A DNA stretch of 64,000 bases from Spirogloea muscicola (lineage: Eukaryota > Streptophyta > Zygnematophyceae > Spirogloeales > Spirogloeaceae): the NCBI GenBank assembly GCA_009602725.1, contig WELB01000052.1, positions 240,983 to 304,982 on the forward strand. The letters are read 5' to 3'. Positions 45,485 to 47,159 of this stretch are shown piece after piece (the stretch's first letter is position 1; every line of letters begins with the position of its first letter). A program made the position numbers and the translations under genes. The notes beneath the pieces were generated by a model that saw nothing but the letters and a program-made list of their open reading frames with translations, was not told where the DNA came from and did not search any database.

Positions 45485-47159
45485 ATGGCCCGCGGGACNC
45501 GGCGGCGGGGCCGGCGACCCGGCGGCGGCGAAGCCCAAGGGCGTGGCACTCAGTGACCCCTACGCCGTGAAGCGCCACCTGGACGACGTCGCCTCCGAGG
45601 TCCCTTGACGCTCCGCCTTGTTCCCTGGCTCCTCATTGCCTTGGTCGCCCCGGACTTGCTTGAGCCGCCGGCTGGCCCAGTGAGTAATGCGGCTGCTGAT
45701 GTTAAAAGAGCGGCTGTGAAGGCCAGCCAGGGCGCAGCGGGGCCAGTCATAAGCCGCAACGCCCGTCCCAGTGCGCTGCGGCGCCCGGCCTGGCCTCAGC
45801 CAGCAGCTCCTGGGCGCCGGCGCAGGTGGTGGTGGGGCGGGGCTACGAGGAGGACAACATGATGAGCAACGTGAAGCTGGGCCTGGGCCTGCTCGCCTGC
45901 GCCATGCCGCTCGCCGCGCAGCTCTACCCCGTCAAGTTCCCCGACAACCGGCCCGTCCTCATCGCCTGCGTCTCCCTATATCCTCCTCCGCGCAACCCCA
46001 CCCTGATGGCTCAATCCTAAACCCCAAACCTTGCAAACCATAACCCTAAACCCCAAATTGAGAAATTCATGGTGGACTGGAGTCCGTGATCTGGCCGCTT
46101 GAAGTACGAATGCTCGGACCCAAGTTCTTGGGAGCACGTCTTGGGCCTCATAGATGTAAAGCCTTTCTTGGGGCCTCATGCTGCTCTGTCTCGGTGACTC
46201 GTTTCTGCACTGATGGACTAGCAGCCTATTCATGCTGAAACACCCTCGCAGCATCCGTTCCTCTCCTGAGCCAGGCCTCTTGTCAGTCTCGGATTGTTGG
46301 GGCCTTTAGTGGTCTTGCGTCAGCGGAATATCAGCCCGTGCTCCCGCAGTAGGCCTGCTCATGGGTAGCAAGTCGGAGTCACGCTGCAGCTGCTCTGCCT
46401 GGCCTTTGTCAGTCTGCAGCTTAGAGGTCGCAGTTGTGTTGCAAGCAGAGCTGCCTTGACTGCACCAGCAGCACCTACGTGCTCCTGAACATTGTGCTCC
46501 AGCTCCTAGCAATCCTGAAGGAGAGGAATCACATCCTGTTCAGCCATCCCCCCAAGGTGAGTGACGCGAGTGCCCTTGCTGCATAAGGGCGAGCCCACCA
46601 GGTTGGTACGAGCCCTGCTGAAAGACTGTCTTTCTTCTCTCCTTGCACAAAGGGCTCTATCACATCGACTGGAGTGGCAGTGTCGTCAAAGCTCCCGCGC
46701 TTCTCGGACCTGTACACTCTGCGGATTGCCAGTTCAGACCCAAAGTCCCTGGGCGCCCACCCTCCTGTGGAGATCACCAAGAGTGTGACCACTTGGTACT
46801 GTCTCCTTTACCATCTGCTCGGACTGGGAAGCTTTAAGCACCTTGGCTGCAAGTCCTTTCCCCCGCAGTTGAAGCATGCACCCCTCCTTGAAAAAGCACA
46901 AGTGCAGATTATGGCACATGTTGTCACTGCAGCACGACAGCAGTTGCCCTGCATTATGCAGTATGTAACAACACGCTCCAGCTTCTGCGGTTACTGCAAC
47001 AGCTTACTGGTGTCATCGTACCAAATGTTGGTAACCCAATGTTACAGCATTTGATTTTGCAGGTTTACGAGCGATGGAATCCTTGTCGAGTCCATATTCA
47101 AGTCGGACGTGGATGACTTGCTCAAGAGCTATGAGGACGATGAAAGCAAATTTAAGTGA
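45485..47159 (+). CDS. SPCS2: Signal peptidase complex subunit 2 (SPC25)
   Basis: Non-catalytic subunit of the ER signal peptidase complex. Exons: GC-rich first exon to 45599, 45826-45977, 46475-46556, 46653-46795, 47063-47159. The first exon codes for 'VALSDPYAVKRHLDDVASE'; the second 'GRGYEEDNMMSNVKLGLGLL' and 'YPVKFPDNRPVLIACVSL', the two-helix hairpin typical of SPC25; the third 'YVLLNIVLQLLAILKERNHI'; the fourth 'STGVAVSSKLPRFSDLYTLR'; the last 'FTSDGILVESIFKSDVDDLL'. The order and spacing match plant SPC25. The ATG at 45485 and the domain lie in different frames across the single N at 45499, so bases are missing there. Intron 2 is AT-AC with a U12-type branch site. Another SINE-like copy lies in intron 1 at about 45688. 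Confidence 0.92.
45688..45735 (-). repeat. SINE-like repeat, inverted copy in SPC25 intron 1
   Basis: 'GCGGCTGCTGATGTTAAAAG' and 'AGCGGCTGTGAAGGCCAGCC' are the reverse complement of the conserved 'GGCTGGC..CAGCCGCTCTT....ATCAGCAGCCGC' core. Confidence 0.55.
45978..46474 (+). other. SPC25 intron 2, U12-type AT-AC intron
   Basis: The intron starts ATATCCTCC and ends CAGCAC. A 'TGCCTTGAC' branch site (consensus TTCCTTRAC) lies at 46452-46460, its adenosine 15 bases from the exon. Removing exactly this interval joins VSL to YVLLNIV as in plant SPC25. No GT-AG pair near these sites keeps the frame. A telomere-like patch lies at about 46014-46060 inside it. Confidence 0.85.

Follow-up and report, generated by a model that had tools for sequence, protein, structure and literature searches.

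A very probable U12-type AT-AC intron in the SPC25 gene of the streptophyte alga Spirogloea muscicola

Introduction

The SPC25 gene, which encodes the 25-kDa subunit of the signal peptidase and belongs to the protein-secretion machinery, lies on contig C52 of the Spirogloea muscicola genome and is interrupted by an intron that begins with AT and ends with AC. Is this an intron of the rare minor class, which depends on a second spliceosome, and does the genome encode the machinery that would remove it? The question was raised by an initial annotation of a 64,000-nucleotide stretch of the contig (the window; all positions below refer to it unless another contig or locus is named). That annotation considered a U12-type intron in an alga-like genome to be notable, on the grounds that some well-studied green algae, such as Chlamydomonas, are considered to lack the minor spliceosome. 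The sequence evidence assembled here makes it very likely that this phase-2 intron of a streptophyte alga belongs to the U12 type (minor class, AT-AC subtype) of spliceosomal introns.

SPC25 and its introns

The gene is read on the forward strand of the window. An exon with a provisional 5' boundary (VVVGRGYEEDN...LIACVSL, 45826..45977) ends in phase 2 and is followed by the AT-AC intron of 497 nt (45978..46474), which was delimited by homology, by alignment of three gene copies and by enumeration of splice pairs. The first base of the next exon (46475..46556), placed from the sequence and the three-copy alignment, completes a Leu codon. In contrast to the AT-AC intron, the two introns farther downstream have GT-AG ends in the sequence, one at 46557..46652 (GTGAGT...AAAG) and one at 46796..47062, and they flank an exon at 46653..46795. 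The last exon, including the stop codon, occupies 47063..47159. The spliced product scores 124 bits against PF06703 (SPC25) and covers positions 1-159 of 159 of that model. It also matches PDB chains named 'Signal peptidase complex subunit 2' (9rjb, E 2e-13; 7p2p, E 4e-13), which we take to be human SPCS2. A comparison of the whole window with Rfam gave 0 matches. Telomere-like CCCTAAACCC repeats occur within the AT-AC intron at 46005-46060, and each of the three gene copies has a variant of them.

U12-type introns carry the consensus ATATCCTTT / RTATCCTTT at the 5' splice site and TTCCTTRAC at the branch site, the latter usually about 10-20 nt from the 3' end. At the SPC25 junction the upstream exon ends in ...GTCTCCCT (45977), the intron runs from ATATCCTCCTCC to GCTGCCTTGACTGCACCAGCAGCAC (46474), and the downstream exon begins CTACGTG. 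The 5' splice site ATATCCTCC (45978..45986) agrees with ATATCCTTT at 7 of 9 positions, having CC at +8/+9 where the consensus has TT. The branch site TGCCTTGAC (46452..46460) agrees with TTCCTTRAC at 8 of 9, and its putative branch A, at 46459, lies 15 nt before the final base of the intron, within the usual range. Between the branch motif and the intron end, which is formed by the 3' splice site CAGCAC (46469..46474), stands TGCACCAGCAGCAC, and a polypyrimidine tract is absent. The ends, the branch motif and the spacing of the branch A given in the initial annotation all agree with the sequence and its coordinates.

Homeologous loci on contigs C163 and C10 are 86% and 85% identical to the C52 copy over the query, and the flanking SPC25 coding sequence is conserved in the three copies. 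All three share the same intron termini, the ATATCCT donor and the CCTTGAC branch core 15 nt from the end. In the three-copy alignment, identical columns number 14 of 14 at the start of the intron and 27 of 28 at its end, compared with 321 of 458 in between. Two copies carry the full branch motif TGCCTTGAC (8/9), and C163 carries AGCCTTGAC (7/9). The downstream exon begins with C in C52 and C10 and with G in C163, and all three codons specify Leu; this change is silent in the split codon and fits the proposed exon boundary.

From base composition, we estimate a joint chance of 5e-9 for a forced donor that reads ATATCCT, an AC end and, in 12 positions, a branch motif with no more than one mismatch; fewer than 0.001 such introns would be expected in 150,000. 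These figures flatter the intron, because the motif set was picked after the intron had been seen. A scan of the sequence examined for donor, branch and frame returned three matches, two of which are SPC25 copies, while 40 permuted motif pairs returned 3.05 on average (with a mean of 71.6 donor sites, compared with 51 for the real motifs). Since permuted motifs match as often, the two motifs by themselves give weak support, and the case for the intron, as read from sequence, is carried by exon homology and three-copy conservation.

Minor-spliceosome components

The genome assembly searched comprises 153 Mb in 471 contigs. With Rfam models we identified three U6atac genes on contigs C40, C294 and C69 (85.5, 85.5 and 83.2 bits; cut-off 33), three U12 genes (81.1, 80.1 and 80.1 bits; cut-off 53) and four U11 genes (59.6, 57.2, 52.4 and 45.8 bits; cut-off 39), and all ten matches were reproduced on repeat scoring. 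The branch-pairing stretch GAGUAAGGAA is kept in all three U12 genes, and AAAGGG near the 5' end is kept in three of the four U11 genes. The initial annotation had held that the absence of U12 and U6atac snRNAs from the organism's complete genome would refute a U12-type intron; that objection fails, as three copies of each are present.

The genome also encodes two copies of CENATAC (CCDC84), on contigs C7 and C4, with PF14968 scores of 99 and 98 bits (cut-off 25.3), whereas none of 14 control genomes has a PF14968 match. The C-terminal motifs occur on both contigs and the N-terminal finger on C7, and the protein matches PDB 8y6o chain R, 'Centrosomal AT-AC splicing factor' (E 5e-8). According to PMC8280824, CENATAC promotes the splicing of AT-AN minor introns in human cells and co-occurs with the minor spliceosome in evolution.

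The search for minor snRNAs and proteins that the initial annotation had proposed was thus successful for U11, U12, U6atac and CENATAC, and not for U4atac or the U11-48K zinc finger. The Rfam U4atac model gave no match among the 48 scored of 1771 candidates, so that absence of U4atac from the genome is not established. Two hand-made patterns, one built as the complement of the genome's U6atac on what we take to be the human U4atac layout and the other on the upstream element of the other snRNA genes, gave 14 and 7 matches, none convincing, compared with 28 and 7 in reversed controls. The best match to the U11-48K finger is below threshold (18.3 bits; cut-off 21.1). Of the minor-spliceosome proteins, the searches covered CENATAC and this finger.

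A TATCCCA element starting 68-77 nt upstream is common to the three U6atac genes, the three U12 genes and all but one of the four U11 genes, and may be a snRNA promoter element of this alga. The fourth U11 gene (C439:1913-2051, 45.8 bits) has altered first bases and lacks TATCCCA in the 1.4 kb examined, and for these reasons may be a (retro-)pseudogene.

We infer from these sequences that the SPC25 transcript is spliced at the AT-AC ends by the minor spliceosome, and that a U4atac exists. At the 5' splice site U11 would pair with CCT, and at the branch site U12 would pair with GCCTTGAC, leaving the A at 46459 bulged out. The U4atac/U6atac.U5 tri-snRNP with CENATAC would then take over, and cleavage would occur at AT and AC.

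The U6atac pairing box

PMC3584512 cites works on pairing between U6atac and the donor. In all three U6atac copies of S. muscicola, GAGCCGAGAGA replaces the GAAAGGAGAGA of the Rfam consensus (over a wider stretch, CGUUGAGCCGAGAGAAGG versus GUAUGAAAGGAGAGAAGG), and the box responsible for 5' splice site pairing is changed from AAAGG to AGCCG in the genes on C40, C294 and C69 (L004, L005 and L006). The first 68 nt of the three genes are identical despite diverged upstream flanks, which argues that this U6atac is functional. In the standard register of U6atac/donor pairing, positions +6 and +7 of the SPC25 donor face C and C, with which they cannot pair, and the C at +8 faces G, with which it can. 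Across +4 to +9, three of six positions pair with the genome's U6atac, compared with four of six for the Rfam consensus. When any register is allowed, the best predicted duplex with the SPC25 donor weakens from -7.7 kcal/mol for the consensus box to -4.6 kcal/mol for the genome's box, and that with the consensus donor from -7.1 to -2.8 kcal/mol. A hypothetical donor, ATATCGGCT, would pair fully with the genome's U6atac (predicted -11.1 kcal/mol); no minor intron with this donor was found in the sequence examined.

Pairing at +6/+7 may be dispensable here, the pairing may be shifted, or other introns may have changed to match, and one intron cannot decide among the three. Tentatively, the zygnematophyte lineage might have a U6atac without the standard pairing box, to which SPC25-like introns are passed from U11 even though it is unable to pair at +6/+7. 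Donor proofreading would then be relaxed or shifted, perhaps after the loss of most minor introns, or other minor introns would have changed to match. We regard this scenario as possible and, on present evidence, rather doubtful.

The weakened pairing with U6atac would also suit removal of the intron by the major (U2) spliceosome, and AT-AC ends are not exclusive to the minor class, as U2-type AT-AC introns have been reported (PMC3584512). However, an ATATCCT donor combined with a CCTTGAC core 15 nt from the end, as seen in all three copies, is of the kind that defines U12-type introns in the same source (PMC3584512), and the genome contains minor snRNAs (U6atac, U12 and U11) as well as CENATAC. 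We therefore consider splicing by the major spliceosome very improbable. The U12-type identity proposed in the initial annotation is well supported by the combination of motifs, three-copy conservation, minor snRNAs and CENATAC.

Alternative splice sites

The exon boundary of the U12-type intron cannot slide, with A versus C on one side and T versus C on the other, and the alignment to SPCS2 is ungapped over VSL/YVLLN (PVLIACVSLYVLLN / PVLALCVISYFVMM). We enumerated frame-keeping, stop-free splice pairs whose donors lie within 90 nt of the intron ends and whose acceptors lie between 90 nt upstream and 60 nt downstream of them, which for the C52 copy yielded 26 GT-AG, 80 GC-AG, 16 AT-AC, 32 AT-AG and 14 GT-AC pairs. 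No other listed GT-AG, GC-AG or AT-AC pair of C52 produces VSL/YVLLN, the AT-AG and GT-AC pairs being only counted. The next-closest AT-AC acceptor would add SST to the protein, at a distance of 6 nt from the branch A. The earlier statement that phase and the VSL/YVLLNIV junction force these ends holds in this enumeration, where the pair provides the sole ungapped SPCS2 junction among those listed, as does the statement that no GT-AG pair works (0 of 26). That the gene model is wrong, because a different GT-AG or GC-AG pair is in use or because the gene is a pseudogene in which the segment is retained or broken, is also very improbable: 26 GT-AG and 80 GC-AG frame-keeping pairs are available near the ends, but none of those listed keeps the ungapped alignment, the coding flanks are conserved in three copies and the spliced product spans the full PF06703 model.

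Further minor introns

A branch-motif screen with the pattern TTCCTTAACN{8,12}YAS returned 69 rows at 66 distinct sites, compared with 252 for the reversed-pattern control. We inspected 65 of the 66 sites (C260:128976 was left out): 29 distinct ones, spread over 30 loci, together with as much as 1.5 kb of upstream sequence, and 36 with about 770 nt; the screen is blind to introns longer than the upstream stretch inspected. Ten RTATCC words occur upstream of these sites, only two of them with T at +7. One of the two, in L063, is 1370 nt from the branch site. The other, in L108, reads ATATCCTCC, is 377 nt from the branch site and sits in a repetitive open frame. The remaining eight were set aside by eye on their +7/+8 bases; L112, one of these, was translated.

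Besides SPC25, the combined donor, branch and frame scan of the sequence examined identified only L064, where a possible U12-type intron of 91 nt (GTATCCTTC...CTCCTTGAC...GTCAG) lies on the minus strand at 2070-2161 of that locus. It was not accepted as a second minor intron, given that the flanking protein has no Pfam family above cut-off and that permuted motifs match as often on average. In Arabidopsis, NHX5/6 are minor-intron genes (PMC4892727). A search for NHX5/6 homologs with PF00999 gave 40 matches. The sole PF00999 gene inspected, L081, which presumably encodes a KEA-type exchanger, has no U12-like intron that we could see. No second minor intron was confirmed in the sequence examined, a result that would fit, and does not demonstrate, a small number of minor introns.

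Streptophyte placement and implications

Contig C392 encodes intact plastid psaA and psaB. Against PDB, psaB scores highest with 8htu (1627 bits), and the next three chains, 9lut, 6l35 and 7ksq, score 1623-1626 bits; we take 8htu, 6l35 and 7ksq to be moss, and several other entries in the list remain unplaced. Entries that we assume to be from seed plants follow at 1582-1594 bits (7wfd, presumably Arabidopsis, 5l8r, 5zji and 7ew6, among others) and 1529-1558 bits (4xk8, 4y28, 2wsc and 3lw5, among others). Those that we assume to be from chlorophytes score 1524 (6zzx), 1519 (6igz), 1519 (6ijj, presumably Chlamydomonas) and 1508 bits (6sl5). Because psaB is nearer to the land-plant than to the chlorophyte entries, with organisms assigned as above, the plastid groups with streptophytes. 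For psaA the presumed moss entries lead with 1650 and 1633 bits, and 6ijj (1605) is about level with 7wfd (1603), so this protein is less decisive for placement. A chlorophyte origin of the genome, from a trebouxiophyte such as Apatococcus, was considered and abandoned in view of the psaA/psaB scores. The PDB matches of RPL3 are presumably from green plants and show no finer relation. Short psaA/psaB-like fragments, some with stops, were observed on C74, C93, C136, C17, C22, C36, C148 and C132, and are possibly plastid DNA in the nuclear genome.

A triplication has been reported for the S. muscicola genome (PMC7994812). Copy numbers here are three for SPC25, U6atac and U12, three plus one for U11, and two for CENATAC. 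Contigs C8, C39 and C42 each carry a U11 gene whose start is 22-23 kb from that of an exchanger gene, in what looks like a triplicated block.

Chlamydomonas reinhardtii is informally a green alga too, but it is a chlorophyte, and psaB of the present genome scores about 108 bits higher against its top entry (presumably moss) than against the presumed Chlamydomonas entry. A 2010 survey reports no U12 introns among ESTs of C. reinhardtii and absence of U12-type snRNAs (PMC2846911). Figures given by Larue and Roy 2023 include 166 minor introns for Chara braunii and 110 for Klebsormidium nitens (PMC10639083), which are likewise streptophyte algae but not zygnematophytes, as S. muscicola is. The notability that the initial annotation derived from Chlamydomonas does not carry over: psaB is nearest to land plants, and with minor introns published for Chara and Klebsormidium, it is unsurprising that a streptophyte alga should have a U12 intron.

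With AT-AC introns of the U12 type in land plants and animals, the SPC25 intron shares its terminal dinucleotides, an ATATCC donor, a branch motif near the 3' end, the lack of a pyrimidine tract and a genome with U11, U12, U6atac and CENATAC. It differs from them in the C at donor positions +8 and +9, in the G at the second branch position and in that U4atac was not found among the scored candidates.

In the open PubMed Central literature outside the supplements of large surveys, a search for Zygnematophyceae together with the minor spliceosome returned only work on the U2AF65B gene family, and parts of the minor spliceosome may not have been described before in this class. The zygnematophytes have been called the sister group to land plants (PMC11096116). 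Minor-spliceosome RNAs and CENATAC are documented here in a zygnematophyte, and the change in U6atac, if general, would provide a natural test of whether donor pairing at +6/+7 is needed for minor splicing.
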